From assembly GCF_001431405.1 (NCBI RefSeq), contig NZ_LDJL01000011.1, forward strand, positions 496,001 to 560,000: DNA of 64,000 nucleotides. The letters run 5' to 3'. Under the pieces are notes generated by a model that was given only the letters and a program-made list of their open reading frames with translations, was not told the DNA's origin and searched no databases. Shown here piece after piece: positions 14,738 to 33,780 of this stretch (positions are counted from its first letter, which is position 1; every line of letters starts with the position of its first letter). The translations under genes and the position numbers were made by a program. This DNA comes from Pseudoxanthomonas dokdonensis. Lineage in GTDB: Bacteria; Pseudomonadota; Gammaproteobacteria; Xanthomonadales; Xanthomonadaceae.

Positions 14738-14821
14738 CTAGGGTGACTGTAAGGAATACAACAACATAGCGATTCGCCGACCATCAACGGACAACTGAAA
14801 AACAAGGCTGGAATCAGCTGT

Positions 14822-14842: not shown

Positions 14843-14970
14843 CCATGCCCGATGCTCAGTCGGGAGCGCGGTTGAGCGGCTTGCGGCGACCGGGGAAGTG
14901 AAGACGCAGCCCGCGCTGGCAGAACAACTGTCATGGATTCCTTCACGGCTGCCAATCAGCCGGCGCCGCT

Positions 14971-15210
14971 CTATCGTGTCGGGGCATTCCTACGCCCGAA
15001 TCCCGGCAGGCCGCCGCGGGCCGCGATCCACCGCTCGACGAAGCGCTTGCCCTGGGCGTGGCTGGCCGCCCTACCCTCGTGCCGAACGCCCCAGCCTTGG
15101 ACCCAGTGCCGCCCGTCCGCGTAGGCCACGCCCACGGTGCCGTAATGCCACCGCAGGTAGCTGTGGCCCTCATCTGAATCAATCCACTGGCACGGTGCCG
15201 GGAGCGGCAT
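14971..15210 (-). CDS. small phage protein of unknown function
   Basis: 79 residues, last gene of the late operon, 42 nt after the S74 tail fiber. The sequence has globular character (CQWIDSDEGHSYLRWHYGTVGVAYADG, QGKRFVERWIAARGGLPG), unlike the Arg/Pro-rich shadows around it. Not recognised; its position suggests a tail-associated or late accessory role. Confidence 0.65.
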   Translation of the reverse strand: MPLPAPCQWIDSDEGHSYLRWHYGTVGVAYADGRHWVQGWGVRHEGRAASHAQGKRFVERWIAARGGLPGFGRRNAPTR

Positions 15211-15252
15211 GCCGGCATGGTAGCGCCGGCTGGTGCAGGGGGTGAGATTGGA

Positions 15253-17121: not shown

Positions 17122-17945
17122 CAGGCGACCTCGCGAGTGCCTTTGGCCTCGTAGGTAAACGGCACCGGGCTGGTGATGTTCCAGCCGGAGAAGTCGCTGT
17201 TCTCGTCGGTCGAGAATCGGACGGTAAAGCCGGTTGGAGACGATGCCGTGAGCGTCAGGCTCGGGACGGTGCCAAGCGCCGTCACGCCGTTGTGGGTCTG
17301 CGTGATGTTGATGTGCCACAAGGCGTCGAACGGCACCGGGAAGGTCACCGACACCTGCGTATTCTCCGAGCCACTGGCCGGCGCCGAGCCGGAGCCGCAC
17401 TGCACGAAATATTTGGTTTCGTCATCGGTCACGCCGGCCAGGAACGTCTTGGCCGTGCCATCGACCACGATGTCGGGATCCACGGGCGGCTCGGGCTCGG
17501 GCAAGTCGGTCAGCACGTAGCCGGCGCCGTCGGTCACCGGCACCTGGCCGGTTGAGCCGGTGGCATCCGGCATCTGGCGCACGTCCTCCCACAGCAGGTT
17601 CACGCCGTCATTGGTCAGAAACTTGCCCGTCTCTCCGGACAGTGCCGGAATGGTCAGCGCGGTGTCGCCGCCGGGGATGACATCACGCGTCCAGATGGTC
17701 GCGCCCAATGCATCCTTCAGCACCACGGTGTAATTGCCATTGAGGAAGATATTGGTGTTGGCGCGGCCAGCGCTGTCCAGGACCACCGGGTTGCTATTCG
17801 GGATGGCCAGCCCATCGTCTGACCACGTCGTGCGCAGATCCGTGGTGCCAAGGTCGTAGAAGGTCAGCGAGCCGCCGGATACCGGCTCAATGCCGAGCAG
17901 GTCGGGGAATACGGGCGCGGGGTTGTAGAACCGATAGGCGGGCAT
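17121..17945 (-). CDS. phage tail fiber/tail-attachment protein
   Basis: 274 residues. The N-terminus (YNPAPVFPDLLGIEPVSGG, then TFYDLGTTDLRTTWSDDG and VVLDSAGRANTNIFLNGNYTVVL) is a module seen at the start of many podovirus tail fiber and tailspike proteins, probably binding the tail hub. The C-terminal half is a beta-rich domain (ENTQVSVTFPVPF). Coupled to the S74 fiber, it may serve as the adaptor that anchors it (inference). Lies downstream of an intrinsic terminator. Confidence 0.75.
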   Translation of the reverse strand: MPAYRFYNPAPVFPDLLGIEPVSGGSLTFYDLGTTDLRTTWSDDGLAIPNSNPVVLDSAGRANTNIFLNGNYTVVLKDALGATIWTRDVIPGGDTALTIPALSGETGKFLTNDGVNLLWEDVRQMPDATGSTGQVPVTDGAGYVLTDLPEPEPPVDPDIVVDGTAKTFLAGVTDDETKYFVQCGSGSAPASGSENTQVSVTFPVPFDALWHINITQTHNGVTALGTVPSLTLTASSPTGFTVRFSTDENSDFSGWNITSPVPFTYEAKGTREVA

Positions 17946-17959
17946 GATGGCTCCAAAGA

Positions 17960-17982
17960 AAAAGCCCCGGATGGCCGGGGCT
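17960..17982 (-). terminator. intrinsic terminator inside the late operon
   Basis: AGCCCCGG-CCAT-CCGGGGCT followed by TTTTTC on the minus strand, between the last ejection gene and the tail fiber pair. It would end most transcripts arriving from upstream unless Q-type antitermination is active. Confidence 0.75.
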
Positions 17983-18002
17983 GTGTGTGGTAGATTTCGC
18001 GA

Positions 18003-18218
18003 ATGAAGGGATTTCTGATTTCGCAGCTGATGTGGCCGCTGGGGTGCCTGGTGTTCCTGTCAGGCCCGTACCTGCTCACGCGCCTGATTTGGCGCTACAT
18101 GCCCGACTGCTGGCTCAAGCGGCTGCTGTTCACCGCCTGGTATGAGACGCCGGCCGAACCCTGGTTCAGGGATAAAGCCGGTCGAACTCAGCAGCTGGAA
18201 CCGACTGACCGCCGGTGA
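18003..18218 (+). CDS. possible membrane moron gene on the opposite strand
   Basis: 71 residues, plus strand, in the gap between minus-strand late genes. One or two hydrophobic segments (LMWPLGCLVFLSGPYLL, LKRLLFTAWYE) and a basic/polar tail. Its last 50 nt overlap the neighbouring gene antisense. There is no strong ribosome site. Independent, oppositely oriented membrane genes in late regions are often lysogenic-conversion genes, but this one could be spurious. Confidence 0.4.
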   Translation: MKGFLISQLMWPLGCLVFLSGPYLLTRLIWRYMPDCWLKRLLFTAWYETPAEPWFRDKAGRTQQLEPTDRR

Positions 18219-19923
18219 TGTCGATTTCCAGCGGGCGGTCGTTCCCGTAGGAAGCCGCGCCGGGCAGCGCCATGCGGTTGGCAATCTTGGCTGCAGCCTT
18301 GGCGCTGATGCCGGGGTTCTTCCGCATCAACAGCTTCGCCAGCGCCGTGCTGTCCAGCGCACGCGACACTGGGGCTGCCACGGCTGCGCCGGCCGCATAG
18401 CCTGGCCAGTTGACCGGATTGAACACGCCACCTGCCAGCATGTTCTCGGCGGTTCCCGATGACGGTGGTGCCTTCATGCGCTGGCCAATCTTCGCCAGTT
18501 CGCCCAGTTCGCCGCGGGTGCCAGAGGCCATTGCCTCCTTTGCCCCCTTGCTGTTGGAGACCGCGCCCATCAGCGACGGCGGGCTGATGTCGCCGTCCGA
18601 TGCTTTTGCCACCAGCGGCGCCAGCGTCTTGCGGTTGCCATACTCCTTCCGCAGCTGCGCCCAGGCGGCGGCATCTTCCGGGCTGATTGACTTGTCCATC
18701 GCACGGCGCACCGCGGTCTGTACGTTGCCGAGGAAATGCGAGGTTGGGCCGCCACTCTTGATGATTTGGCCCAGCTCCGAGTCGAACGCCTGGTATGCCC
18801 TGCCCGGTATGGTCACGCCATTGGGGCCGGTGACCGCCTGCGCGTACAGCCTGTCGATGGCGCTGTTGACATCGGCTGACACCTGCTGGCTGATGCTGGA
18901 GGAATCAGCGATGTTCTGCAGGCTCCGCACGAGTTGCTCGTCGACCTTCAGGTCGTTGCGACCGGTCAGATCATCGAACAGCCGAGACTGACGCGCCTTG
19001 GCCATACTGTAGACATTCGAGTCAACCCGGGCGGCATCCTCGCCAATGGTCGAGGCCAGCTGCTTGTTGAAGGAGGCCACCTGGTCAGCGTATCGCCCCT
19101 GCGCACCGGTAAACGGCATATTCCGCAGCATCGACTGCATGCGCTTGATGAAGGTCGAGTCCGACAGCTGCGCCGGCGTGAGGTCGATGCCCCTGGCGCG
19201 AGCGGCCTCGTAGACCGATCGGGCTTCCGGGCTGATGGAGGTGCCGGCCCGCGATGCCAGGGCGCCCAGGCCTTTGCCAAGACGCTCGCCCGCGGCACCA
19301 GCGCCAGCACCCAAGCCAACGTTGGTCAGCCGATTCTCACCCGTGGCCACCGGCTGCAGGCCGCCCATTACGGCGCCCTGGGCGGCATTGCCCAGCAGAG
19401 TGGTCGGCAGGAACGCCGCACGCGCTGCAGGCAAGCTGCGAAGTCCCGCCGCCGGCAGCAGCATTGTCGACAGGTAGCCGCCAACGTTGCCGGCCACGCC
19501 CGCCCCGGTGCCCATCAAGGGCTGCGACAGCCGGCGGTCCTCATCGATGGTGGCCTGCTGGTCAGCCAGCGAATTGCGCAGGTACTCGCCCGCGCTGCCG
19601 CCGTTCTCGCCGAAGATGACCGGGTTCGATTCCACCGCATAGCGCGCCGCGTCGGTGCCGGCTTGCTTGATGCCGCGACCGGTGTCGGCGAACGCCTTGC
19701 CCATGCCGGCCAGGAACTTGTCGACACCGGACATGCCATCGGTCGGGTTGCTCGGCGCGGGCGCCTCTACGGGGCGCTGCTGCGGCTGTTGCGGCGCGGG
19801 CAGGTCGGCCGGGGCCTGGTAATTCTGCTGCGCGTAGGCCAGCACCTGCTCCTGCGTGGCGTCATCTGGCGCGGTGACCTCGTAGCTGTTGCCGTCCGGC
19901 CCGGTGATTCGGTACTTCGCCAT
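18166..19923 (-). CDS. phage DNA ejection protein (P22 gp16-like position)
   Basis: 585 residues. It starts with MAKYRITGPDGNSYEVTAPDDATQEQVLAYAQQ, a short module common at the front of podovirus internal virion proteins, then a Pro/Gln linker (45-65), then Ala/Gly-rich amphipathic and weakly hydrophobic helices (about 130-230; GAGVAGNVGGYLSTMLLP) typical of proteins that cross the cell envelope during DNA injection. Third of three consecutive ejection-type genes, like P22 gp7, gp20 and gp16. Similarity to a named protein cannot be shown by eye. Confidence 0.7.
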   Translation of the reverse strand: MAKYRITGPDGNSYEVTAPDDATQEQVLAYAQQNYQAPADLPAPQQPQQRPVEAPAPSNPTDGMSGVDKFLAGMGKAFADTGRGIKQAGTDAARYAVESNPVIFGENGGSAGEYLRNSLADQQATIDEDRRLSQPLMGTGAGVAGNVGGYLSTMLLPAAGLRSLPAARAAFLPTTLLGNAAQGAVMGGLQPVATGENRLTNVGLGAGAGAAGERLGKGLGALASRAGTSISPEARSVYEAARARGIDLTPAQLSDSTFIKRMQSMLRNMPFTGAQGRYADQVASFNKQLASTIGEDAARVDSNVYSMAKARQSRLFDDLTGRNDLKVDEQLVRSLQNIADSSSISQQVSADVNSAIDRLYAQAVTGPNGVTIPGRAYQAFDSELGQIIKSGGPTSHFLGNVQTAVRRAMDKSISPEDAAAWAQLRKEYGNRKTLAPLVAKASDGDISPPSLMGAVSNSKGAKEAMASGTRGELGELAKIGQRMKAPPSSGTAENMLAGGVFNPVNWPGYAAGAAVAAPVSRALDSTALAKLLMRKNPGISAKAAAKIANRMALPGAASYGNDRPLEIDITGGQSVPAAEFDRLYP

Positions 19924-21335
19924 TATTCGACCCTCTGGATTGACCAGCCGCCGGGTGCGGCGCCCGCCGCCGGCTGGCTGCGGCCGAGCGACTCCGACAG
20001 ATCCTTGATGAAGGCTCGCAGTTGCTGCAGGTTTCGCAGATTGACCGCGGGGTCATTGGCCAGACTTGGGTATTTGAGGTTGGCGATTTTCTGCTCCAGG
20101 TCGGACTGAGAGCCAACGCCGGGCACACGGGTCAGGGCCAGCATGTCGTTCTGGATGGACCCGATGGCGGCGTCCAACTCCTGCCCTTCCGGGGTGAAGC
20201 GCTTGTAATACTGGTCGATCGGGCCGGTGTCGCCAATCACGCCCTGATCCAGCTTCTGCAGCGCCATGTCGATGCGATTCAAGCCGCGCTCTACATTCAG
20301 GAGTTGTGGCGCTTTCGTGCGTGCCGCGGCGTTACGCTCGGCCTCCGACTTAGCCTGCTCCTGCCCCGCGGTTTGCGCGATCGCTGCATTCGCCTGAATT
20401 GCCTGAACCTGCGGCAGGTACTTCAGCTTCGCCGCCTCTTGCGCTGCCGTGGTCAGTGCCGCCTGCTCTTCGGGGGAGCGACCGGTTGCAAGGCCGGTCG
20501 CCGCCGCGCCGAAGTCAACCGATGACCCGCTCGGCGCTGCATTGAACGCCGCCGGATTATCGCGAATCTGTGCCTGCAATTCCGCAGGCAGCAAGGGATC
20601 AATCGCGATCGGCATGCCATCAGGGCCGGTGAAGGTTGGATTCCCAAGCGATGACGGGCGGCCCCCGCCAAGGTTTCCGGCTCCGCCCAACGGAGTCCAT
20701 CCTGCGGAATCGCTGAACACCTCGACCATGCCGGTGCGGGGGTCGCGCCGTGCCGGCCGCTCCCGCCCATCGGCGCCACGAATCATCTCGAACGAGAATC
20801 CGCCGGTCGCTGCCCTACCCTCCTGCCCCAGCGCGATTCGTGCGGCCTGCTGATACTCGGGCGTTCCGGGTTTGAGGCCAGCAGCTTCGGCCGTCAACTG
20901 GAATTGCTGGAATCCTGCCGGGACGCCATTCGCAGTCTTCACCCCATCAGTCATGGCCAGAATCTGCTCGGCCACGGGCATGACCTGAGCAGCGTCGAAC
21001 TCGTCCGGCACATCGCCACCCCATGATTGCGCCTTCAGCAACGGGAGCGCGCTGCGGTAGAGAGCGGCCTGCAGCTGCGGATTGTTGCTGGACTGCTTGA
21101 GCGACTTGGCGAGTCCGCGAAGCTGGCCGCGCAGGCGGTCGCCCTGCCCCTGGTATGCGCTGGCCGCCTTGGGATCCAGCGCGAAGGCGCGGTTGCTGGC
21201 GTTTACGTCACCGCCGATGGCCAGCGGGGCAAGGCCCTGCAATTCTGCATTACGGGCTGCCTGTTCGCGCTCCTGGCGCTGGCGGGTGCCGAAGGCATAA
21301 CCCTCCTGCATCGCTTCGGCGAAGTTGTTTGCCAT
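19923..21335 (-). CDS. phage DNA ejection protein (P22 gp20-like position)
   Basis: 470 residues, soluble, Gln/Ala-rich and mostly helical (FAEAMQEGYAFGTRQRQEREQAARNAEL; AKSEAERNAAARTKAPQLLNVERGLNRIDMALQKLD), with a Gly/Pro-rich middle section. The gene overlaps the start of the next ejection protein by one base and follows the gp7-like gene by 9 nt. Assigned by composition and position. Confidence 0.65.
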   Translation of the reverse strand: MANNFAEAMQEGYAFGTRQRQEREQAARNAELQGLAPLAIGGDVNASNRAFALDPKAASAYQGQGDRLRGQLRGLAKSLKQSSNNPQLQAALYRSALPLLKAQSWGGDVPDEFDAAQVMPVAEQILAMTDGVKTANGVPAGFQQFQLTAEAAGLKPGTPEYQQAARIALGQEGRAATGGFSFEMIRGADGRERPARRDPRTGMVEVFSDSAGWTPLGGAGNLGGGRPSSLGNPTFTGPDGMPIAIDPLLPAELQAQIRDNPAAFNAAPSGSSVDFGAAATGLATGRSPEEQAALTTAAQEAAKLKYLPQVQAIQANAAIAQTAGQEQAKSEAERNAAARTKAPQLLNVERGLNRIDMALQKLDQGVIGDTGPIDQYYKRFTPEGQELDAAIGSIQNDMLALTRVPGVGSQSDLEQKIANLKYPSLANDPAVNLRNLQQLRAFIKDLSESLGRSQPAAGAAPGGWSIQRVE

Positions 21336-21344
21336 GTCGGTTCC

Positions 21345-22262
21345 TCAGTAGCTGTAGGGGATTTGTTCGCGGACGACCGGGCCGATGCTGCCTTGTCCGC
21401 CCCATCCGTTGTTTCCGAAGTACTGGCCGGCAGCCGTGCCGACGCCATTCAATGCATTTCCCCATGCGTTGGCCTTGTCGCCATACGCTGAGGCGCGGGC
21501 GTTGCCAATGCCGACAAGCTGGTTTCCAACCTGTCCGGCCGTGTTCTGGCCGAGGCTGTTCAACTGGCTATTTGCCTGACCGCCGATGCCGGCAAGCCGG
21601 AACAGGTTGTTCTGGAAGTTCCCGAACGCCTGCGACCCCAAGTTGGATGCAAAGCGCATCCGGTCCGCATCCGCGCCGCCGGAGTAGAGGCCGCCACGAG
21701 CGGCAGCGCCACGGTCAAGCGCTTGGATCCCTTCGTCTCGGGCTACCAGGTAGTCGGGCGTCTGGTAGAACTGGCTGAAATCGGCCACACCAGTGCCGGG
21801 CGTACTCGCGCCGCCCACTCCACCAGGGGAGCCGCCCGCAATCGAGTACGTCACTGGCGTAGTGCCGCCCTGATCGCCCTTGCTGAACAACCCGAGGGCG
21901 TCATAGCTGGTGCCGCCGAATTGACCAGCAAGGTTGGCGGGATCGGTAATCTTGTCGAAGAAGCTGCGCTTCTTCTTGGCCGTGGGTTCGCCCCCGCTCA
22001 TCGTGATGCCGCTCGCGCCGGTCGTTTCGCCTTGATACGTTGGCAGGCCATACATGCCGGCCAGCATGTTCAGAGCGCCAACGCCAGTCTGTTGGTACGG
22101 AAGCGTGTCGGCACGAGACTGGTTGTACATCGCCAACTGTGCGTTGATGGCGTTCTGGCCGCCCGCGGCGCTGGCGTTGGCCGCGCTGTCTGCCGCGTCT
22201 GATTGCATTTTGCCGCCGATAAGTGAACCGGCTGCACCGATGATGGCGCCTGCTGCTGGCAT
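21345..22262 (-). CDS. phage DNA ejection/transfer protein (P22 gp7-like position)
   Basis: 305 residues from MPAAGAIIGAAGSLIGGKMQSD, a Gly-zipper-like hydrophobic N-terminus followed by a Ser/Gln/Gly-rich body (QNAINAQLAMYNQSRADTLPYQQTGVGALNML; FRLAGIGGQANSQLNSLGQNTAGQVGNQ). This pattern is shared by many podovirus DNA transfer proteins. The upstream in-frame extension lies inside the GNAT gene and is rejected. First of the three ejection genes. Confidence 0.7.
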   Translation of the reverse strand: MPAAGAIIGAAGSLIGGKMQSDAADSAANASAAGGQNAINAQLAMYNQSRADTLPYQQTGVGALNMLAGMYGLPTYQGETTGASGITMSGGEPTAKKKRSFFDKITDPANLAGQFGGTSYDALGLFSKGDQGGTTPVTYSIAGGSPGGVGGASTPGTGVADFSQFYQTPDYLVARDEGIQALDRGAAARGGLYSGGADADRMRFASNLGSQAFGNFQNNLFRLAGIGGQANSQLNSLGQNTAGQVGNQLVGIGNARASAYGDKANAWGNALNGVGTAAGQYFGNNGWGGQGSIGPVVREQIPYSY

Positions 22263-22264
22263 GT

Positions 22265-22822
22265 TCAGTTCTCCAATATGGAATAGTCGTCGTGCATCAC
22301 CGCCCAGCGGTAAGCCGCACGAACCCCTTTGTCTTTCTGGCCCAGAAGAGCGCATTGACCGCGCACCCATTGCGGGCTTTCCTGCATGTGCATCCAGTCG
22401 TCAAGATTCAGCGAGTAGTGCCTGATGTCGTGCGCCACACCACGTCGAATGAAAGCCGCCGGCCTGATGCGGTCCTTCCGGAACCCGACCTTCTCGGTCA
22501 ACCGCCAGGCCGGAATGTTGTCCTCGGGCACCTTGGTCACGATTCGCGTGCAGTCGGTGCCACAGAACAGGTAATGCGCCGCGGCCTTGGCGCAAGCCAG
22601 CGCATCGCGTGTTCCAGGCAAGAACAGCGTGTGGACCTCGTACACTCCGTCGCCGAGGCGGTGGAAGAAGAATCCGCCAGTGGCGAACTCAATTCCGATG
22701 CCGTCATCAAAGATGGCCGACAGCGGCAGTGGCCCATCCTGGCCATCTTGCGAGATCCACGGCTTCACTTTCGGATGGTCGATAACGCCTTGCAGGAATT
22801 CCGGGCCTTCAGCAACCCTCAT
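22265..22822 (-). CDS. phage GNAT-like acetyltransferase (DUF2824 type)
   Basis: 185 residues. The core has the GNAT pattern: GGFFFHRLGDGVYEVHTLFLPGTRD (beta4-beta5), ALACAKAAAHYLFCGTDCTRI, then DNIPAWRLTEKVGFRKD, the N-x2-A-x3-x3-GF signature of acetyl-CoA-binding motif B. P22-like phages often carry such a gene between tail-accessory and ejection genes. Target unknown; it may modify a virion or host protein. Confidence 0.75.
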   Translation of the reverse strand: MRVAEGPEFLQGVIDHPKVKPWISQDGQDGPLPLSAIFDDGIGIEFATGGFFFHRLGDGVYEVHTLFLPGTRDALACAKAAAHYLFCGTDCTRIVTKVPEDNIPAWRLTEKVGFRKDRIRPAAFIRRGVAHDIRHYSLNLDDWMHMQESPQWVRGQCALLGQKDKGVRAAYRWAVMHDDYSILEN

Positions 22823-23040
22823 CCTGGAGTTACCTGTATATTCACCACCCCACCCAACAAATCCCGCTTGATGGGGCTGGACACGCGGATGCGGTAGATG
22901 CGATTGCGGAAGCGGCCCAAGCGCCAGAATCGAACGCGCTTGCCGTATTCGCCCAGCTCGCCGAGCGAACGTTCGCGCCAGTTCGACCAGTTGCGGCCGC
23001 CGTCATCTGAGTAGGAGATTTGGACTTTGCGGTCACTCAT
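22819..23040 (-). CDS. detached C-terminal piece of gp10-like tail accessory protein
   Basis: 73 residues: VQISYSDDGGRNWSNWRER, LGELGEYGKRVRFWRLGRF and RNRIYRIRVSSPIKRDLLG. This SDDGG-W...GEY...R-LG-R-R-R-F signature normally forms the C-terminus of podovirus gp10-type packaged-DNA stabilization proteins. Here it is a separate ORF overlapping the end of the large upstream gene by 8 nt and the start of the GNAT gene by 4 nt. It probably assembles with the upstream product (inference). Confidence 0.8.
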   Translation of the reverse strand: MSDRKVQISYSDDGGRNWSNWRERSLGELGEYGKRVRFWRLGRFRNRIYRIRVSSPIKRDLLGGVVNIQVTPG

Positions 23041-25453
23041 TTGACACCGTCAATCCGTACACTCGCCCGGTCAGTGATGATGTTATTTCGGTCCAGTCGA
23101 TACCGTCGTCAGATACGTAGACATGACCCCCGACAGTCGGCCCCGCGCTCTGATATGAGCAAAGCGTATAACTTGCGCCGGTCCATTCCATTGCCGTTAC
23201 CTCGCCGTCAGCCGTAAATGTCTGAGTCCATGACCCGCCATTGTTGGTGGAGACCAGTACTTCGCCAGTAGCGCCGCCCACTACCCATACTTCATTGCCG
23301 CCAGGGAACCCGGCAGCGACGGCGGACCCGCGCAGAGATGCCCCAACCTTGACGATTGAGTTCGATACGGCCACGCCATCAACCGTAACGGCGCAATAAA
23401 TATCTTGGCCTGAGATTCTTGAGCCAACAAGAATTGCTCGATTTCCACTTGATGCGATAGCGCCGCCGCTGGTGAGATATACCCCGTGAGCGCCGCCAGC
23501 GACCAAATCCGTAGCCATTTCATCATCGGAGTAACTGAACCCACTGGATGCCGTTGTTCCTGCCGTAATTAGCCTCTCGCCAACATAGGTCAGGTATTGA
23601 ACCCGGACGATTTCTGATTTAAGCGAGAAGGTTGACCCGTTGTCAGTACTCCTGTTTGCTCCATTGGAGCTTCCCCGGCCAATCAGAACAACGTCACTGC
23701 CAGCCTTCCTTGCTGCGCCTCTGGCGCCCCCTGAGCCGCCAAGCGCCCCAGTAGAGGTAAGCCAGTCCGCGCCTGAATTGTCCGAATATCTGGCAGTCGT
23801 TGCGTTGTAAGCAATCACTCTTCCTGCATCTGCTGCAATTATCCCAGACGCAGCCAGTTCTGGATTCAGTAGCGGCCTATTCCAGTCGTCCGAATCAATT
23901 ACCCGGATGACTCGATAATCCGAGCCTCCAATTCCGCCTAGTGCATACGAAATGAGGGAGACGTTAAACGTGTCGTTCAACTCGTCTCGCAACCCAGCAG
24001 TATCCAAAACGCGGAGAACCAATGTGATCTGGCCTGGCTCTATTGGCGTTCCGCTAATAGTGGCGGTAACTTCATCCCATTCAAGTCCAAACAGCGAAAG
24101 GTCGCTAGACCCCTCAACAAGAATCGTTTTCAGGATTGGGTAAGTCCCGGGCGTTGTGGTGTAGCTGTACAAATATGCGTCGCCAGCGGCCCCGCCCGGT
24201 GCGTGGCCAACTATGGAGGGCGGCTCTGGCTGTACAGGAAATACTCCATCCGCTTCATCACTGGCCAATCCACCAGTGTCGAAAACCAGCTCCATGTAAG
24301 GCGCCACGATGGCGTTCTGATTTGCGTGAAATACACCCGTGACACGCTCGGAGACCAACGGTTCGACTTCTTCGAAATGCCAGTCCCAATCCAGAACAAA
24401 GAGCTTCCCGGAGTAGGCGTCGCCGGCAATCCACTGACCGTTCCAGTAGGTCAGCGTGTTGATGCGCCAGCGGCCGGCAAGCTCGGTCGGGCCGGTGTAG
24501 GTGGATCGCCGATGCCAGATGCCCTGGGCCACGTCATAGCCCCAGGTCTTGCCGCTTGGGAAGGTCAAGTAGTAGACCTTGTGGCCTTCGTCCTCCCACA
24601 CCATCGCGAAGGCATCGGCCCAGCTTTCCTCGGCGATGGCGCGTTCGATGGCCCGGGTCGACACCGGAACAGCGCGGTAGCCGTCCATGCGGTACACGAC
24701 GCCATCGTTGCCCAGCCACATCGGCGCATTGTCCAGCATGGCAATTGTGAACCGGCCAGCGCAGCCGCGCTCGACGACGATGCGCTTGGACTGGAATGTC
24801 CCAGTGGCAGCGCCGGTGTTGGCGAAGAACTCCGTGGTGGTCTGGTTGAACACGACCACTTCGAACTGGCTGACGATGAGGCCGACAATCTTGTCGGGGG
24901 ATGCCTCGGACTCGTAGCGATCCAGCGAGTTGTAATCGAAGGCGTTGGCCAGGTTCGAATGGAACCAGAACCGGCCGAACGGCTCGACCTGCGCCAGATA
25001 GGAATCGATGTAGGCCACCGAGCCAGCGCCCGGGTAGGCCTCATCGGTGATTTTGGCCAGTACCGTCGAGCTGGTGTTGTAGACGTAGCCGGCTGAGCCA
25101 TTGGCAATGAGAAGCTCATTGCCCAGGCCACGCTGGTTGTAGGCCATCGACACCCGGCCAACGCCAGGAATGGCGCCGCGGGGGATGCCGACACCGGTGT
25201 TGCTGACCTGGTAGAGCTGGTTGCCGGAGACGACGAACAGCTTGCCTTCGACGTTGATTGAGCCGCGAATCGGGCCATCGCCGATGATTTGATAGGGCTT
25301 CAGCCCGGGCGGCGTGCGAAGCCGGTTCACTGTCCGAGTGCCGGGCACCTCGGACATTACCGGCAGGTAATTCACCGTGTCCTGCGAGGACCACGGCAGG
25401 CTGTCGTCGGTGTAGAAGCCGCCAATCAGGTCGACAGGGGTGTACTTCATCAT
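23033..25453 (-). CDS. gp10-like DNA stabilization protein fused to an inserted Ig/beta-propeller module
   Basis: 806 residues from MMKYTPVDLIGGFY (start overlaps the gp4-like stop). Residues 1-395 follow the podovirus gp10 pattern (SWSSQDTVNYLPV-type start, TPPGLKPY, FGRFWFHSNLANAF, GCAGRFTIAMLDNAPMWLG, VPYMELVFDTGG-like end). Then come a He_PIG/cadherin-like Ig domain (about 405-500; TISGTPIEPGQITLVLRVLDTAG) and a run of Asp-box-like repeats (SDNSGADW, STDNGSTF, STNNGGSW, SDDGIDW), indicating a sialidase-type beta-propeller. The insert DNA (about 23040-24260) is visibly poorer in GC. The usual gp10 C-terminus follows as a separate ORF. Confidence 0.8.
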   Translation of the reverse strand: MMKYTPVDLIGGFYTDDSLPWSSQDTVNYLPVMSEVPGTRTVNRLRTPPGLKPYQIIGDGPIRGSINVEGKLFVVSGNQLYQVSNTGVGIPRGAIPGVGRVSMAYNQRGLGNELLIANGSAGYVYNTSSTVLAKITDEAYPGAGSVAYIDSYLAQVEPFGRFWFHSNLANAFDYNSLDRYESEASPDKIVGLIVSQFEVVVFNQTTTEFFANTGAATGTFQSKRIVVERGCAGRFTIAMLDNAPMWLGNDGVVYRMDGYRAVPVSTRAIERAIAEESWADAFAMVWEDEGHKVYYLTFPSGKTWGYDVAQGIWHRRSTYTGPTELAGRWRINTLTYWNGQWIAGDAYSGKLFVLDWDWHFEEVEPLVSERVTGVFHANQNAIVAPYMELVFDTGGLASDEADGVFPVQPEPPSIVGHAPGGAAGDAYLYSYTTTPGTYPILKTILVEGSSDLSLFGLEWDEVTATISGTPIEPGQITLVLRVLDTAGLRDELNDTFNVSLISYALGGIGGSDYRVIRVIDSDDWNRPLLNPELAASGIIAADAGRVIAYNATTARYSDNSGADWLTSTGALGGSGGARGAARKAGSDVVLIGRGSSNGANRSTDNGSTFSLKSEIVRVQYLTYVGERLITAGTTASSGFSYSDDEMATDLVAGGAHGVYLTSGGAIASSGNRAILVGSRISGQDIYCAVTVDGVAVSNSIVKVGASLRGSAVAAGFPGGNEVWVVGGATGEVLVSTNNGGSWTQTFTADGEVTAMEWTGASYTLCSYQSAGPTVGGHVYVSDDGIDWTEITSSLTGRVYGLTVSNE

Positions 25454-25863
25454 TGGAAGAATCCATCCCGCCATGAGCCAAAGCGAGATCCGACACCTGC
25501 CGGCAAGTCGGGGAATTCGGTGCGGGCAAACGTGTTGGCGGTAATCTGTGCGCTCAGGGTGGCCAGGCCGTCATTGGCCTGCTGCACGATGTCGGCAGAC
25601 AGCTCGGTGCCGTAGCGCGGGCGCAGGCGCAGGGCCAGGTTGTAGGCGATGGCCTCTTCGGCCTCGGGGGGTGCGGGCAGCTCTTCGCCCGGGCCGCTGA
25701 CATCCTGCCAGCCCAGCGTCATGCCCTGAACCTCCCAGGCGCGGCACATCAGGTTCAGTGCGCGAATGGCGGTGGCTTCGTCCTCGGCTTCAGGCGCCTC
25801 GTTGGGATCAACGACACCGAGAATCTGCAGGGCGTCGCGCACGATGTCGGCGACGGCGGTCAT
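25450..25863 (-). CDS. P22 gp4-like tail accessory factor (head-tail adaptor)
   Basis: 137 residues: TAVADIVRDALQILGVVDP, a region like AIRALNLMCRAWEVQGM, then EEAIAYNLALRLRPRYG and C-terminal FPDLPAGVGSRFGSWRDGFF. This is the pattern of the small helical adaptor that binds under the portal after packaging. Order coat - small protein - gp4-like - gp10-like matches P22-type clusters. The stop overlaps the next start (ATGA). Confidence 0.8.
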   Translation of the reverse strand: MTAVADIVRDALQILGVVDPNEAPEAEDEATAIRALNLMCRAWEVQGMTLGWQDVSGPGEELPAPPEAEEAIAYNLALRLRPRYGTELSADIVQQANDGLATLSAQITANTFARTEFPDLPAGVGSRFGSWRDGFFQ

Positions 25864-26034
25864 TTAAGCGCCCTTCTTGGTCGGCGCGGGCTTCTTCGTA
25901 GTCAGCTTGTTGCCTTCGCCGGCACGCACGAAACCGTCCTTGCCGGCCTCTTTCTCGGCATCGGCATCGGCCACGATTTTGTAAGCGGCCGCGGTGTCGC
26001 CGCCCAGATAGAGCATGCGGGGGTAATCGTTCAT
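25864..26034 (-). CDS. small phage protein between coat and head-tail adaptor
   Basis: 56 residues from MNDYPRMLYLGGDTAAAYKIV, six bases after GGAG. Basic Lys/Pro C-terminus (TTKKPAPTKKGA). Directly abuts the gp4-like gene. Similar tiny genes follow coat genes in many phages, with unknown role. A short GC hairpin (26050-26068) lies just upstream. Confidence 0.7.
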   Translation of the reverse strand: MNDYPRMLYLGGDTAAAYKIVADADAEKEAGKDGFVRAGEGNKLTTKKPAPTKKGA

Positions 26035-26097
26035 CGGAATCTCCAAAGACGGCCCCCGAAGGGGCCGCCGTTGCCTGGGTGGGTGTTGCGGGCGGGG

Positions 26098-27294
26098 TTA
26101 CTCGGTGATGCGCGTCGCGTGGTCCGGACGCACAGCCGCTTCGCCGTACAGCACATCGACGCGGGTGTGTTCCTGGTCGGCCAAGCCGTCACCGAAGGTC
26201 ATCACGCGCACGCTGATGCCGTTGATGGTCGCGGTGTAGCCTTCGCACGACGCCAGCACCGGCAGCGGAGCAAACGCCGCGGCGAACGCGTTCTTGTGGA
26301 ACGCCAGGCCCTGGACTGCCGAGTCGCTGGCATCGCCAAACACGGTGATGGCCGCGCCCGCAGCCGGGCCTGCCGAGACGGTGCCCACGACGGTCGAGGT
26401 GGTCGGGATGATGGCCGGGTAGATGGACACGTTGCCCGCGCCGCCCACGTAGTCAGCCGTGACCACGAAGTAGCGCGGCTTGCCGTTGTTGACGCCGGTC
26501 ACCGGATTGACGGCATTGACGCCGGCAATGGTGAAGACGGTGCCCTTGGGCAGTACACCGGTGCCGGTATTGACCGCCAGTACCGAACCCGTCTGGCCCG
26601 CCCCATTGACCAAGTAGCCCGCGCCGCCGCCGTTGACCTGCAATGGAAGCGACTGCTGCTCATAGAACGTGAAGCCGGCGAACTGGCCCACCGCGTTCTC
26701 GTCGAACTCCTTGCGGATTTCGCTGTTGGTATGGAACAGGGTGGCGTTGGCTTCGGCCAGTGCGATGTTGGCATCGCTGGAGAAGTGCACGCTGCGCTGA
26801 TCCGACGGGGCCAGGAACCGGTTGAGCATCGCCGATGCTTCGCGGTACGGGGTACGGGTGGCCGGCACGGTGCCCCAGGTGCCAACGGTATTGGCCGTCT
26901 GGTTCTTCATGCGGGTCAGCAGGTCGGCGTTGACCTCGGACGACAGCGCGCTCATCGCCGGACGCAGGAAGCGTTCCCGGAAATCGGTGAGGTCCAGCTT
27001 CTTTTCCTTGGCGGTGAAGGTCAGCGGGACATGCTTCTGGGTGTCCAGGGTCAGCGGGACTTCGGTTTCGTTCAGTGCGGGCGCGGACGAGCCGCCGGCA
27101 AAGGTCGAGCCGTCGAACACGACCGGGGTCGGCGGCACCTTGATGCGGACCGTCTCGCCCTTCTTGTAGCCCTGGACTTCCTGGCCGAACTCGATGCTGC
27201 GGTTGGTGTTGATGTTTTTGACGACGACGTTTTCTTCGACCAGCATCTTGGCCGCCTCGCGGGCGATCATCTGGTGAGTGAGTGCCTGTGGCAT
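26098..27294 (-). CDS. major capsid protein (P22 coat type)
   Basis: 398 residues. The N-terminal MPQALTHQMIAREAAKMLVEENVVVKNINT, YKKGETVRIKVPPTP and PLTLDTQKHVPLTFTAKEKKLDLTDF strands, and the later FAGFTFYEQQSLP, match the P22 coat family (HK97 fold with an inserted domain). The central Gly/Thr-rich segment (about 215-320) corresponds to the insertion domain. Follows the scaffold gene by 21 nt, as expected. Confidence 0.9.
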   Translation of the reverse strand: MPQALTHQMIAREAAKMLVEENVVVKNINTNRSIEFGQEVQGYKKGETVRIKVPPTPVVFDGSTFAGGSSAPALNETEVPLTLDTQKHVPLTFTAKEKKLDLTDFRERFLRPAMSALSSEVNADLLTRMKNQTANTVGTWGTVPATRTPYREASAMLNRFLAPSDQRSVHFSSDANIALAEANATLFHTNSEIRKEFDENAVGQFAGFTFYEQQSLPLQVNGGGAGYLVNGAGQTGSVLAVNTGTGVLPKGTVFTIAGVNAVNPVTGVNNGKPRYFVVTADYVGGAGNVSIYPAIIPTTSTVVGTVSAGPAAGAAITVFGDASDSAVQGLAFHKNAFAAAFAPLPVLASCEGYTATINGISVRVMTFGDGLADQEHTRVDVLYGEAAVRPDHATRITE

Positions 27295-27315
27295 TTTCGT
27301 TTCCTCTGTGTGGCC

Positions 27316-28218
27316 TTACCGCTTCCGCTGGCGCTCTCGTTCGCGCTTGAACCACTCGTCGTCGGTCAACTTCTCCGGCGGGGTTTCCGTCGGAGCGCGA
27401 CCAGAGACGGTCGGTGCGGGGGCGGGTGCCCGGGTGATGGGTTTGGGAGTTGCCACCGGTGCCGGGGGCGGGCTCTGCACTTGAGGAGGCGCGGCAGTCA
27501 GGCGCGACGCGAGACGGGCGACGGCATCGGCCATGAGTTCAGGCCGAATGGAGGCGACCGCCCACAGGTCGTCGTCGTTGGTTCCGAGGTGGTAGGCAAT
27601 CTGCGGCCCGTTTTCGTGGGCGATGATTGCTTCTTGCAGTTGCGGCGGCAGGTAGCGCGGGTCAATCGAACCGACGACCTCGTAGAAATCCGGGGTCTGC
27701 TCGGCGAAATCCTCGACACGGGTGTTGTACGAGGATTGGAGTTCCTGCTGCCGCTGGGTGGCTTGGGTCTGTTTTTGCTGCTCTTCCCGCGCACTCAGCT
27801 CCTGCTTCACGACCCACTGGGCGTGCGCGCGGCTGAAGGCTGGGATGTCGAAATCGAACTGATCCAGCGTCGGCTCGCCATCTGCCGGCGGGGTGCTGCG
27901 CTGGGGTGTGGTGGTGGCCGGCCGCGGCTGGCTGGATTCGGAAACCTGTCGCCGCAGCTCTGCGTTTTCGCGGTTCAGACGGTCGATGTATTCCCTGGTG
28001 CGGTTCTTCTTGCGATCGGAGCGCGCCTGCTCGTCGGCAGCTTTCTTGTCGGCCTCTTCCTTGGCCTTGGCCGCTTCGTCGCCTCCTTCGCCATCTGTGG
28101 CCGGCGGTTCCTGCTGGGCGGCCTCGGCATCGCTGCGCGGGGCTGGCTTGGGTGCGGTCTGTTCTTCGGCAACGGCTTCGCCGCCGCTCACCTGTTCGGT
28201 GTCGGTTTCAGTGCTCAT
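27316..28218 (-). CDS. phage scaffolding protein
   Basis: 300 residues from MSTETDTEQVSGG, with AGGA 6 nt upstream. Highly charged, Glu/Ala/Lys/Gln/Pro-rich and largely disordered or coiled coil (EQARSDRKKNRTREYIDRLNRENAELRRQV). A C-terminal basic helix (DDEWFKRERERQRKR) resembles the coat-binding tail of P22 gp8. Position between portal and coat supports the call. Confidence 0.85.
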   Translation of the reverse strand: MSTETDTEQVSGGEAVAEEQTAPKPAPRSDAEAAQQEPPATDGEGGDEAAKAKEEADKKAADEQARSDRKKNRTREYIDRLNRENAELRRQVSESSQPRPATTTPQRSTPPADGEPTLDQFDFDIPAFSRAHAQWVVKQELSAREEQQKQTQATQRQQELQSSYNTRVEDFAEQTPDFYEVVGSIDPRYLPPQLQEAIIAHENGPQIAYHLGTNDDDLWAVASIRPELMADAVARLASRLTAAPPQVQSPPPAPVATPKPITRAPAPAPTVSGRAPTETPPEKLTDDEWFKRERERQRKR

Positions 28219-28262
28219 TACGTCCTCTCGGGTTTCGGCCAGGCCGGGCCGATGCGGTCGGG

Positions 28263-28433
28263 TTACTTCCCGTGGTCTTTCCGTTCTTGCGCTGCCGCGG
28301 CGCGTGCAGCTGCGTCGCTCAGGTGTCCGTGGTAGAGCGCTGCCGCTCCTCCCTGCGCGCACTGCTGGTCCAGCTCCTGTCGCCTTTGGTCATGGAACCG
28401 CTGCATTTCTCGCAGCTGTTCGGCCAAGGTCAT
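28263..28433 (-). CDS. small helical phage protein between portal and scaffold
   Basis: 56 residues from MTLAEQLREMQRFHDQRRQE; Gln/Arg/Ala-rich and helical. A TTG at 28451 overlapping the portal stop is an alternative start; neither has a good ribosome site. Unknown role in head assembly. Confidence 0.6.
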   Translation of the reverse strand: MTLAEQLREMQRFHDQRRQELDQQCAQGGAAALYHGHLSDAAARAAAAQERKDHGK

Positions 28434-28447
28434 GTTGGCGAGCGAAA

Positions 28448-30499
28448 TCAAAACTGCGGCCCCTCACCAGGCATAAAAAAACCGCCCGGAGGCGGTTGGC
28501 TGGGTGCCGGCGAAAATTGCGGTGGAGGCTGCAGCATTGCAGCCAACTGACCGGACTGGGCCATGTTCTGCAGCTGCTGGGCCACGGCCTCGGCGACGGT
28601 TTTCTGGATGTCGGCCTGCGCCTGCGGAATGACCACCTGCGCCTTGGCAGCGGCCTCCTGTGCGCGGGCCTCGCTGTAGGCGGCATCGGCCTCGGCCTTG
28701 CGGGATTCGGCCTGCATCCGTGGATCTGGCTGCTGCGGCTCGGGCGGCTGCTCGCCTTCCTTCGGCTGCATGACACCCTGCGCGACCAGCAGCTTGCGGA
28801 ACGCGGAATCCACTTCGTCAGCGCCGGGAAGGTCGGTGTTCTTGACCACGGTGTAGGCCATCAATGCGGCGATCGGCGGCGGCAGCCCGTTCCCCATCTG
28901 ACCCAGCATCGCGGAGAAGGAATCGACCGCTTCCATGCGCTGGGTCGCGTAGCTCGGGCCAACGGTGATGACCACGTCGTACTTGCCCTTCTGGATGTCG
29001 TTGACCGTGTGCATCTGGCCATCCGGCCCCGGCACTTCCTGGTACAGCGTTTTCCACTTCTCGCCGCCGTCCTCGCCCAGCACGCGCACGACGCGCTGGG
29101 TGTCATAGACCCGCGGAATCATGTCGACCAGGATTTCGTAGGTGTAGCGGATTGAGTAGGTCAGGTTGTCCATGTAGTTGAACGTTGCCGTCGCGCCCTG
29201 CTGCTTGCGCGCATTGATGGCCTTGCCGCTGGTTTCGTTCGAACGAGCGCCCAGGCTGGCGTCATGCTGGCCGGTGGCGGCCTTCATGTCGTCGTTGTCC
29301 ATGCCCGCCAACTGGATCAGCGCCGCCGGCACCTCGGCCTGCTGGGCGCGCTTCGGCATTTCCTCAGCGTCGTCACGCACTGGCAGATAGGGGAAATCCT
29401 CCGAGTTGGCCTTCTTCCAGAAGTTCTCCAGCCCCTTGATCCATTTCATCTTGACGATGAATGGCGCCTTCGGCGCCTTGGCCACGGCCTCGGTCATGGC
29501 GGTGCGGTGGACGTTGTGCAGGCGCTGCTGGTCCTTGGACGGGCGAACCATGCCCTGCCAGTAGTCCTGGCCCTCGATGTTCTGGATGTTGCCCCACACC
29601 GGAACCAGCGGAATGTACTTGCTGGGGAACTCAGCCGGCTCTGTCAGGAACTCGTGGCCATTGGTGATGACCGACATCACCTTGTGCGAGTCGACGACAC
29701 GACGGCGCAGGATTGTGGTGCCGGTGGCGGCCAGGAACTCTTCCGCCTCAGCCTCGGTCAGCCCGGATTCTTCCGCCAGCTCATCGGCGAACACGACCCG
29801 GCCATCGGACAGCGCCCACAGGTCGCGCTTCACCGGCTGCTTGTACCAGTATTCGGAAATACGGACCTGTCCAGCGTCGCGCCAGTCCTCGCAGCCCTGA
29901 TCATCATCGAAGCCTTCCCAGTCGGCGTCGCCATACATGCGCTTGGCTTCGGATTCGGGAACCAGGTCATCCACGAAGGCGAACAGGCCGTCGCGGCGGT
30001 CAATCTGCATGGCGGCCGGGTCGAAGCGGACCGAGGCGAAATTTCGAATCGGGTCAATTCGAATGTCCAACTCGAAATCATCGTCGTTGGCGTAGTCGGT
30101 GCAGATGCGCCAGACGCCCAAGCCGCCCTGTACCGCGGACTCGAATGCGATGTCATACGCCTGCTCGGCGTTGCTCACCGACTCGATGTTGCGGCAGATG
30201 CCCTGCATGATTTCGGCCAGGCCGCGATCGGACTCCTCGGCGCCGCGAACCTTGCCCTGCGGCCGGGTCTGGCGCATTTCGTTGACGACTTGGCGCACGT
30301 GGCTGTTGAGCTTCGGGAACTCGTAGCAAGGGCGATCACCGCGGCGATTCTTCAGTGCGCTATCCCATTGGCAACCGGGAACGGTGACGAACTTGGTGTC
30401 CTCGATAGCCTTGCCGTACAGCTCCGAGCTGCACTCGACGGCGCGTTGGCGACGCTGGCGCATCTCGCTAATTTTGTCAGCGTCTTTGGTCTTTGCCAT
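28448..30499 (-). CDS. portal protein (P22 gp1 type)
   Basis: 683 residues, near the P22 gp1 length of 725. Features: NSHVRQVVNEMRQTRPQGKV, a GGLGVWRI..DY segment, FASVRFDPAAMQIDRRDGLFAFVDD, RPSKDQQRLHNVHRTAMTEAVAKAPK, and a Gln/Ala-rich C-terminal coiled coil (about 600-650) like the P22 portal barrel. It forms the dodecameric DNA entry ring. Overlaps the terminase gene by one base. Confidence 0.9.
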   Translation of the reverse strand: MAKTKDADKISEMRQRRQRAVECSSELYGKAIEDTKFVTVPGCQWDSALKNRRGDRPCYEFPKLNSHVRQVVNEMRQTRPQGKVRGAEESDRGLAEIMQGICRNIESVSNAEQAYDIAFESAVQGGLGVWRICTDYANDDDFELDIRIDPIRNFASVRFDPAAMQIDRRDGLFAFVDDLVPESEAKRMYGDADWEGFDDDQGCEDWRDAGQVRISEYWYKQPVKRDLWALSDGRVVFADELAEESGLTEAEAEEFLAATGTTILRRRVVDSHKVMSVITNGHEFLTEPAEFPSKYIPLVPVWGNIQNIEGQDYWQGMVRPSKDQQRLHNVHRTAMTEAVAKAPKAPFIVKMKWIKGLENFWKKANSEDFPYLPVRDDAEEMPKRAQQAEVPAALIQLAGMDNDDMKAATGQHDASLGARSNETSGKAINARKQQGATATFNYMDNLTYSIRYTYEILVDMIPRVYDTQRVVRVLGEDGGEKWKTLYQEVPGPDGQMHTVNDIQKGKYDVVITVGPSYATQRMEAVDSFSAMLGQMGNGLPPPIAALMAYTVVKNTDLPGADEVDSAFRKLLVAQGVMQPKEGEQPPEPQQPDPRMQAESRKAEADAAYSEARAQEAAAKAQVVIPQAQADIQKTVAEAVAQQLQNMAQSGQLAAMLQPPPQFSPAPSQPPPGGFFMPGEGPQF

Positions 30500-32085
30500 C
30501 AGTAGTCCACCGCGTAATCTTCAAGGCCCGAGACTCGGGTTGTGCTTTCCACCGGGACTGGCTCGGAGAAGGTGAGCGCCACCGCATCCCATTCATCAGG
30601 ACTTTTCACGCCCCGGCGCCGCATGTCCTCTTTCTTTTCCAGCAGCACCCGCGAATTGCTGTCGTAGCGATAGGACGGCCCGCAGGCATCGCCTTGCAGC
30701 ACGTCCGTATCAGGGATGTCTGCGCCGCCGGCCTGCTGCAGCCAATCTCGGGAAGCCATCCAGATTTCAGCGCGGCGGTTGGCGGGGCCGCCGCCGATTT
30801 CCCGGCCCTGTTCGTCGAACTTCGGCGGCTCAACCGGTGCCGCGCCGAAATTCACCGCCCGCACTACGTCGCCGTAGCCCATCTCTACCAGCCGGTCGTA
30901 GATGCCGATGCCCAGGCCGCCAACGTCGATGAACATCCTGGCCGGCTTCTCGGTATCCAGCACCTGCTTCAGCCAGCCAACCCCCTCCATCGTGGTCAGC
31001 TTGTACCGGCGCTCGGTGTTGATGACCTTGCGGCCACGACGGCGAGCGATAGCGAATCCGTCATCACCGAAGCGGGACGGATCGGCACCAATGACCAGCG
31101 GCCCGGACGGCTCGCGCACGTTCTTGCGCGCCTCCATCACGTCAGCCGGCTTGATGAAGCTGTCATGCCCGCTCATCTGGAAAGCCTCAGCCGCGGTGGC
31201 CGGGTATTCCTGCTTGAACAGCACCGGGTCTTTCAGCTCGGTGATTTTGTTGCGGCGCCAGGCCATCTGCTCGGCGTCCAAGCCGTAGAGCGTGGCGTAC
31301 TCCTGCTCTTCGGTCGTGAGCGTGAAGCCGTGGTCAGCAGCCTTGCGATATTCCTCCTGCCAGTACCAGGGCACGAAGATGGCGATGAAGTCGCCCTCCC
31401 CACGCTCGGCGTCGCTCCACTTCTGGTGGAACAGGTTGCCGATGCCGTTGGCGGTCGATTCCAGGATGACCTCGGTCCCTGGCTGATCGGGCACGGCCTG
31501 CAGCACGCCAGCGGCATGCGTTTCGGCGTGCGGCCAGAAGGCCACCTCGGAGCCGTGGAACAGCTGGATGGTCGATGACCGCCCAACACCCTTGGTGCCT
31601 GCGGTGCCAACCTTGTATCCGCTGTCCAGCGCCGAGAAGAACAACTCCTTCGCGTTGGCCGCGCCGGTTACTGGCCGATGCTCAACCGGGCACAACTCGT
31701 GGTAGCGATTGACCATCTCGAACAGGTTCTGCGTCGCCGCATCCTCATGGGTGAGGATGAACGTCCGAATCCCGTTCGCCATCGCCGTGCGGTGGTAGTA
31801 CCTCGCACCGACGTAGGTTGAGCAGCCCTGCTGGCGCCCCTTCAGGATGAGCGCCCGGACACGGCCGGTCTTGGCCAGCTGCTCTTCCAGGCGCTCATGG
31901 ATGAACTGCTGGGCGCGGTTGAACTCGAAATCGATGACCCGGCCCGACTTGGCCCGGATTTTCAGGCATCGGACGGCGAACAGGTCAAGGTCGACGGCCA
32001 TTCGTTGCCGCTCCTCCCTGCGCGCACGCTCTTCCAGAAGCGCCAGCAACTCGCGCTTTTCGTGTGACGACATCGGCATGTTCAC
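30499..32085 (-). CDS. terminase large subunit
   Basis: 528 residues. An ATPase domain with a Walker A-like RALILKGRQQGCSTYVGAR and Walker B-type TEVILESTANG, and a C-terminal RNase H-like nuclease with the metal-binding acidic residues in VIGADPSRFGDDG, MFIDVGGLG and SPDEWDAVALTF. It cuts and pumps DNA into the prohead. The GTG start overlaps the upstream stop (GTGA); ATG at 32079 is an alternative. Confidence 0.92.
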   Translation of the reverse strand: MNMPMSSHEKRELLALLEERARREERQRMAVDLDLFAVRCLKIRAKSGRVIDFEFNRAQQFIHERLEEQLAKTGRVRALILKGRQQGCSTYVGARYYHRTAMANGIRTFILTHEDAATQNLFEMVNRYHELCPVEHRPVTGAANAKELFFSALDSGYKVGTAGTKGVGRSSTIQLFHGSEVAFWPHAETHAAGVLQAVPDQPGTEVILESTANGIGNLFHQKWSDAERGEGDFIAIFVPWYWQEEYRKAADHGFTLTTEEQEYATLYGLDAEQMAWRRNKITELKDPVLFKQEYPATAAEAFQMSGHDSFIKPADVMEARKNVREPSGPLVIGADPSRFGDDGFAIARRRGRKVINTERRYKLTTMEGVGWLKQVLDTEKPARMFIDVGGLGIGIYDRLVEMGYGDVVRAVNFGAAPVEPPKFDEQGREIGGGPANRRAEIWMASRDWLQQAGGADIPDTDVLQGDACGPSYRYDSNSRVLLEKKEDMRRRGVKSPDEWDAVALTFSEPVPVESTTRVSGLEDYAVDY

Positions 32086-32480
32086 GCGGTGGCGGTCAGC
32101 TCTGTCGGCCCAGCAGCCAGCGAGTTCTCATCGCCGAAATACGGACCCTCCAGCACCTCAACCACGAACAGCTGGTTGTAGATTTCGCCGTTGTCCAGCG
32201 TCACCTGCGCCTTGATGTAGGCCCAGCCGCGGTAGACGCCCTGAACCATCACCTGCGCCGATCGGCCGTAGATGCTGGCGCTGGACATGGCCACGCTGCA
32301 GGCCGATTCCATCTTCCACTGCGCCGTGACGATGGTGCGCCCTGGCGGAATCGCTCCGTTGAAGTTGGCGACCAGGCAGCGCTTCTCGGTCGGATACAGG
32401 CGTGTGCTGTGGACCCGCTCCCGGGTGTGGGCCGAAACGTAGGCCCGAGAGACGCGGCCAATTTCCTCGCATGCAGGCAT
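32082..32480 (-). CDS. hypothetical protein between terminase subunits
   Basis: 132 residues with no helix-rich DNA-binding region. Strands such as RTIVTAQWKMESACSVAMSSASIYG and QVMVQGVYRGWAYIKAQVTLDNGEIYNQLFVVEVL suggest a small beta-sandwich. Not recognised. Overlaps both neighbours by a few bases, so it is co-translated with the terminase; it might be a head decoration or packaging accessory. Confidence 0.75.
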   Translation of the reverse strand: MPACEEIGRVSRAYVSAHTRERVHSTRLYPTEKRCLVANFNGAIPPGRTIVTAQWKMESACSVAMSSASIYGRSAQVMVQGVYRGWAYIKAQVTLDNGEIYNQLFVVEVLEGPYFGDENSLAAGPTELTATA

Positions 32481-32962
32481 CAGCCTTTCTCCTTCGCCAG
32501 CAATTCCTTGATGCGGGAATCGAGCTGGTCATCCGGCACAGACACCAGCGGCGCGTCAGGATCACCAGCAAGCACTTTGCGTGCGCCATAGCGGAGCGGG
32601 GACCACTTCTCCAGCAGCTGCATGCGGGTATGAACCTTCAGCTTGGAGCGCTGCACGTTCTCGGAGTCGAACTGCGCGCCGTCCTTGCCTTCGCGGTAAT
32701 CGCCGCTGCTGTCATCGGCAATGACCAGACAATGATCAGCGATGGCGTCATAACCTTCGTCCAGCGCCACGGCCATGCGGTGGTCGAAATCCGGGTACTT
32801 GGCCCGCCAGTCGCGCACGTTGCCGCGGTAGAAGTCGAACTCGCGAGCGCAATCGGAAATCGTCTTGCCTTCGGAAACGCGGCGGACAATCTTGTCGGCC
32901 AGCTCTGGCGTGTACTTGGATTCCTGACCGAAATGGCCGGGCTTGGAGCCGCGGCGTGCCAT
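32480..32962 (-). CDS. terminase small subunit
   Basis: 160 residues. N-terminal helix-turn-helix (YTPELADKIVRRVSEGKTISDCAREFDFYRGNVRDW) followed by a helical oligomerisation core (AVALDEGYDAIADHCLVIAD) and the family-typical NVQRSKLKVHTRMQLLEKWSPLRYG. Recognises the packaging site and recruits the large subunit. Confidence 0.88.
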   Translation of the reverse strand: MARRGSKPGHFGQESKYTPELADKIVRRVSEGKTISDCAREFDFYRGNVRDWRAKYPDFDHRMAVALDEGYDAIADHCLVIADDSSGDYREGKDGAQFDSENVQRSKLKVHTRMQLLEKWSPLRYGARKVLAGDPDAPLVSVPDDQLDSRIKELLAKEKG

Positions 32963-33769: not shown

Positions 33770-33780
33770 GGCTGATTCCT

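Follow-up and report, generated by a model that had tools for sequence, protein, structure and literature searches.

In the window, a 64,000-nucleotide (nt) stretch of Pseudoxanthomonas dokdonensis DNA (contig NZ_LDJL01000011.1, positions 496,001 to 560,000), a prophage encodes a homolog of P22 gp10, the packaged-DNA stabilization protein and tail hub (PHROG 578, PF11134). This protein is a core part of P22-type tails and is usually regarded as a fixed structural plug. While P22 gp10 is a single open reading frame (ORF), the window gp10 is, by its sequence, two ORFs, with ~409 residues of an immunoglobulin (Ig)-like domain and a predicted β-propeller preceding the last 73 residues. Comparison with relatives indicates that a two-piece hub with an exchangeable arm is the architecture of a whole clade. 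We consider it probable that the two ORFs form a two-polypeptide P22 gp10-like hub bearing an exchangeable side arm at a platform loop.

Profile searches aligned residues 9 to 404 of the long ORF to positions 1 to 400 of the 486 in phrog_578 (head closure Hc3; E = 4.9e-114), and its N-terminal propeller part scored 26.8 bits with PF11134 against a cut-off of 25. The 73-residue ORF aligned to phrog_578 positions 406 to 470 (E = 1.2e-11), also matched phrog_19101 positions 525 to 595, and corresponds to residues 368 to 426 and 372 to 433 of the solved hub chains 7eeq and 9vyg. Since consecutive parts of phrog_578 are found in the two ORFs, these together constitute one interrupted gp10, and we refer to its pieces as gp10N and gp10C. 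The one-polypeptide form, which is usual but not defining for gp10, is replaced here by two ORFs. Upstream of gp10N the gene order is P22_portal, P22_CoatProtein and P22_Tail-4 (gp4), as in P22-type clusters. The initial annotation had read the long ORF as a gp10 that switches to an Ig domain and a predicted propeller, and the 73-residue ORF as the missing gp10 C terminus; both readings hold. Its observation that the insert is poorer in GC than both sides was likewise confirmed, and the insert is compositionally foreign: GC content at third codon positions is 0.53 in the insert vs. 0.81 in gp10N and 0.73 in gp10C.

The inserted cassette consists of an Ig-like stem and a distal part. He_PIG (PF05345) scored 14.4 bits in the window, under its gathering score of 24, and exceeded the cut-off in six of nine relatives scanned; the Ig region (residues 411 to 506) was modeled with a predicted local distance difference test (pLDDT) value of ~80. 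The distal part is a predicted β-propeller, in which Asp-box-like motifs were recognized by eye; no BNR/Asp-box match to the 813-amino acid (aa) protein was found in Pfam at E values up to 1. A tblastn search with the 403-aa insert retrieved nothing from 50,697 phage records at E values up to 1, and a cultured phage as the origin of the insert was rejected on this result.

The split is not private to the window. Among 395 genomes of the host family, gp10 was found in 17, of which 10 (including the window) have a long open frame of 810 to 997 residues and 7 have the usual 483 to 555 residues. A separate gp10C ORF at the same protein position is present in nine of the ten long forms, while in the tenth, Xanthomonas sp. 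NCPPB 1128 (G320), gp10C is in frame. We counted G232 as split, as its open frame, listed as 879 aa, seems to read on through a TAA stop that is followed by 3 nt and the gp10C ATG in the same frame. Surveys of the class (369 genomes; gp10 in 7) and the order (299 genomes; gp10 in 4) added only one split form to those of the family, G564 (L054); the class set otherwise comprised the window, four contiguous forms and one partial match. Split forms occur in Stenotrophomonas, Pseudoxanthomonas and Lysobacter species, in [Pseudomonas] hibiscicola and in a gammaproteobacterial metagenome-assembled genome (G564).

Family genomes and viral contigs together gave 112 loci with a gp10N match, which were reduced to 97 distinct gp10N parts by collapsing 15 with identical N-terminal parts. 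These comprise 59 contiguous forms without a large insert, 30 split forms with a cassette, 2 one-ORF forms with a cassette (L034, identical to L053 and L060, and L086), 3 permuted forms and 3 loci cut off by contig ends; because the queries included long forms and the viral contigs were the best 80 matches, the share of 30 in 97 should not be read as a frequency in the population. An IMG/VR record identical to the window is probably the same genome and lends no independent support. The suggestion in the initial annotation that domain capture split gp10 thus stands insofar as a cassette lies inside a two-piece gp10, but not as an event particular to this genome; the annotation had itself named a long protein with a separate C-terminal ORF, as the ancestral state of the closest relatives, as evidence to the contrary, and this arrangement is what nine of the ten long family forms display.

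A large insert and the split go together. The distance between the N- and C-terminal parts is at most 306 nt in the 59 contiguous loci and at least 422 nt in all 30 split loci; of the loci in the usual order with at least 400 nt between the ends, 30 of 32 are split, vs. none of the 59 others. In 25 of the 30, gp10C starts from 8 nt before to 12 nt after the N-terminal stop, its frame relative to the long ORF being +2 in 13, +1 in 9, and the same but separate in 3, and gp10C opens with M(S/A/T)D in 20 of the 30. The pieces are more widely spaced in L052, L077, L078, L079 and L095, with a 104-nt gap in L077 and a 236-aa SPRY protein between them in L095. Unnamed ORFs lie between gp10N and gp10C in L052 (9577 to 11204) and L078 (9589 to 11462), and in L078 the second of these has gp10C fused to its end; in L079, a near-copy, gp10C likewise follows another ORF in fusion. 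Purifying selection acts on gp10C in the relatives tested: the ratio of nonsynonymous to synonymous substitutions was 0 to 0.24 in seven of eight pairs, the eighth being saturated.

Cassettes are exchanged between closely related hubs. The cassette reaches 250 residues or more in 24 split loci; their distal parts sort into 10 sequence families, and even hubs sharing 94 to 96% identity carry different ones. Similar distal parts were found in only 5 of the 13 pairs with gp10N at least 80% identical and in 5 of the 35 pairs at 70 to 80%. At the DNA level, L074 and L075 are 90.7% identical over 1238 nt, after which no similarity was detected until 90.5% identity resumes 7 nt before the end of the long-ORF stop and continues for 1740 columns. 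Between L033 and L071, 88% identity ends at nt 1211 and 81.5% identity resumes at nt 2438, the gp10C start codon. In the two closest pairs with differing cassettes, similarity therefore returns at the stop/start junction. Domain scans of relatives, among them a family scan of 10 proteins, identified propeller-like, DUF7483, TIM and SPRY distal types.

The cassette of NCPPB 1128 belongs to the GTA TIM-barrel family (PF13547, E = 4.5e-112) and shares 59 to 61% identity with proteins from the Xanthomonas phages XAJ2 and LucasX; this homology concerns the NCPPB 1128 cassette and not the window's own. In XAJ2 the TIM protein is encoded by a 3.9-kb gene (annotated hypothetical) behind the tape-measure and peptidase genes, whereas the NCPPB 1128 copy lies inside gp10. 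PHROG 19101 (595 aa, function not assigned) consists of the GTA TIM-barrel domain plus gp10C, a combination seen at L053 9210 to 10982. From its composition, PHROG 19101 suggests that a split on the other side of the cassette, into gp10N and cassette-gp10C, exists elsewhere, in a genome not encountered here. The NCPPB 1128 contig carries two gp10 loci with identical N-terminal parts (L034/L053 and L060, G320:C2) ~37 kb apart, perhaps tandem prophage copies.

In a further lineage the pieces are permuted. L091 encodes a single 862-aa ORF in the order gp10C (MSDH...), gp10N, and Ig plus propeller-like part, just downstream of a gp4-like ORF read from the translation, and L090 is likewise permuted. 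The L091 query yielded 11 contigs with this order, including its own (L152 to L162), three of which (L160 to L162) break off ahead of the cassette or just as it begins. Residues 1 to 70 of three permuted proteins align to PHROG 19101 positions 525 to 590 or 591; the stretch that follows in L155 aligns to PHROG 578 positions 6 to 383. The cores of L158 and L159 are 94% identical and their distal parts unrelated; judged from such alignments, the permuted proteins exchange distal domains too. Used as a query against 398 genomes of the phylum, the permuted gp10C end found two matches, both weak, in the window and in G132, and did not reveal a permuted form; the permuted lineage is therefore known here only from IMG/VR viral contigs.

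More likely than not, the split is a derived state, although an old one: on the far side of the deepest branch in the midpoint-rooted tree all 48 rows are contiguous, and the solved gp10 chains of P22, Sf6, Pan3 and Pam1 are each single. In six phage records whose coordinates were compared by eye, out of the 20 matched by gp10C, there is no large insert. The split label requires 6 or 7 changes on the trees, which may reflect several gains, losses, or exchange by recombination. Both trees are quick trees without bootstrap, the first midpoint-rooted for drawing and the second rooted on a chosen outgroup, and L040 is a long branch of unsure placement. The first tree left out L063, L088 and L116 (contig edge) and the permuted L090, L091 and L092 (the last on the same contig as L161), none of which has a downstream gp10C. 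The second has 51 rows (41 of 43 from the main clade, 4 outgroup and 6 permuted), with the permuted rows forming one clade (100*). In L068 and L076 gp10C is cut by the contig end, and L068 was called split on 3.6 bits; L078/L079 are near-copies and L155 to L157 are identical.

These observations suggest that two polypeptides, encoded in one operon, make up the tail hub. The longer would contribute the N-terminal strand or strands of the platform together with the β-propeller that belongs to the hub itself and then continue into the cassette, Ig stem first and distal propeller last. Translation of gp10C would be coupled to that of the long ORF through the stop/start junction, and we infer that the two pieces assemble together in the virion, gp10C providing the remaining platform strands and packing back onto the long protein as within one P22 gp10 chain. 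A model of the one-ORF relative L053 has the P22 gp10 fold over its whole length. The cassette would exit the hub at the platform loop beside the adaptor, much where the T7 nozzle has its fiber dock, as a side arm touching the host surface or bearing an appendage; a receptor-binding role is plausible for the cassette slot as a whole. Because the right-hand cassette border is a stop/start junction without a continuous frame, exchange is possible without keeping the frame. The same freedom would let gp10C relocate, as it appears to have done in the one metagenomic lineage where it is fused before gp10N and the cassette is free at the C terminus. It is tempting to assume, although we do so tentatively and with slightly less than even confidence, that insertion of an adhesin cassette split an essential hub by gene fission, that the junction became a frame-free border at which unrelated adhesins, even from other tail types, are exchanged, and that the freed gp10C later fused before gp10N, giving a natural circular permutation while the split stage is still abundant.

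Several points weigh against the two-polypeptide hub with a host-contacting arm. The window fold model is poor overall (mean pLDDT 51.5), and in the L053 model the insert, which is not the window's cassette, is unmodeled with pLDDT mostly under 50. Insert GC is below that of gp10N in 24 of the 30 split loci, not in all, and on the class survey the split is not widespread. The suggested host contact draws on fold types and turnover, and the prophage has its own fiber gene plus a weakly fiber-like gene, so that the main receptor-binding role may lie elsewhere than in the arm.

The 8-nt overlap, with gp10C in another frame, is what would be expected if a frameshift or sequencing error had cut gp10C off a once-continuous long gp10. 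This is hardly credible and was set aside, because the break point and a start codon near the same residue recur in 30 distinct gp10N parts with varied cassettes and frames, and gp10C is conserved by purifying selection in the relatives tested. The overlap would also accommodate a programmed ribosomal frameshift yielding an additional fused, full-length gp10, as would the two distinct relatives that have cassette and gp10C in one frame. We regard this as very unlikely and set it aside, since the relative frame differs among relatives; varying frames, several junctions without overlap and a retained start codon are as expected for reinitiation but not for a conserved slippery site.

Given its separate coding, and its fusion behind another, uncharacterized ORF in L078/L079, gp10C might instead be a free protein with its own job, the cassette of the long protein taking over the structural role in the hub. 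However, gp10C is a covalent part of the hub in L053 and in the permuted lineage, and the homologous stretch sits in the same chain in solved hubs, making such independence unlikely. A somewhat better case, although still an improbable one, can be made for the cassette as an enzyme or a head/neck decoration, as Asp-box propellers occur in sialidases. The insertion also lies in the platform, which contacts the adaptor in T7 and SU10 as far as described for those nozzles (PMC6702177, PMC9509320). Against this, the great diversity of the distal parts is easier to reconcile with a binding slot than with a single enzyme, and the NCPPB 1128 cassette also occurs in a tail-cluster protein of another Xanthomonas phage.

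Compared with known systems, the two-polypeptide hub resembles P22 gp10 in profile over both pieces, in gene order after portal, coat and gp4, and in the fold modeled for L053. The T7 gp12 nozzle has been described as a propeller-plus-platform hub with an outer-surface domain between them and the platform formed from both termini (PMC6702177). Its hub plan is alike, but in that description it is one chain whose dock is a fiber-binding jelly roll, unlike an exchangeable Ig-and-adhesin cassette; that dock and cassette occupy equivalent sites would be an extrapolation. The SU10 nozzle, as described, is a hub with added Ig-like domains and a fiber dock loop towards the C terminus, but its Ig-like domains lie between propeller blades 2 and 3 of one chain (PMC9509320).

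The P22-type head-tail cluster lies on the minus strand inside the prophage (Table 1). An exact 47-bp direct repeat bounds the element; its right-hand copy lies at a tRNA-Val gene (52443 to 52517) and is adjoined by an integrase gene (51348 to 52436), and the repeats are likely the attachment sites of a complete prophage. On the 3' side of gp10C follow a weakly GNAT-like gene, with a 4-nt overlap between its start and the gp10C stop, and DNA-ejection genes, then a weakly fiber-like 274-aa gene and the tail fiber. No gp26 tail-needle gene was obvious at its usual place behind gp10C, where no systematic search was made.

Table 1. Features of the gp10 locus and its prophage (window coordinates)
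Feature	Position	Strand	Description
Prophage	14691..52488	.	~37.8 kb; 47-bp repeats at 14691-14737 and 52442-52488
Tail fiber	15253..17400	-	715 aa; separate fiber with Peptidase_S74 chaperone
Next gene	22265..22822	-	185 aa; GNAT acetyltransferase-like and phrog_651 (head morphogenesis)-like, both weak
gp10C	22819..23040	-	Own ORF, last 73 residues of gp10
ATGAGTGA	23033..23040	-	8-nt overlap of gp10C start and long-ORF stop, other frame
Cassette, distal part	23036..23956	-	Predicted β-propeller, WD40 size, Asp-box-like motifs (by eye); residues 507-813
Cassette, stem	23957..24262	-	Ig-like domain of He_PIG type; residues 405-506 (813-aa reading)
gp10N	24263..25453	-	N-terminal ~396-404 residues of the tail hub (head closure Hc3, P22 gp10-like); ATG at 25453, overlapping the gp4 stop
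gp4-like adaptor gene	25450..25863	-	Directly upstream of gp10N; PF11650 P22_Tail-4 and phrog_637

Among the matches listed in the open-access literature, no description of gp10 in split or permuted form was seen. For annotation, a 73-aa ORF behind a long “stabilization protein” should be recognized as half of the hub. Across related genomes, one hub protein can be compared in four states (contiguous, split, in one ORF with a cassette, and permuted), so the part played by gene fission in circular permutation becomes directly testable. As gp10 here bears a variable part, the outer tail would be changeable without altering the fiber genes.
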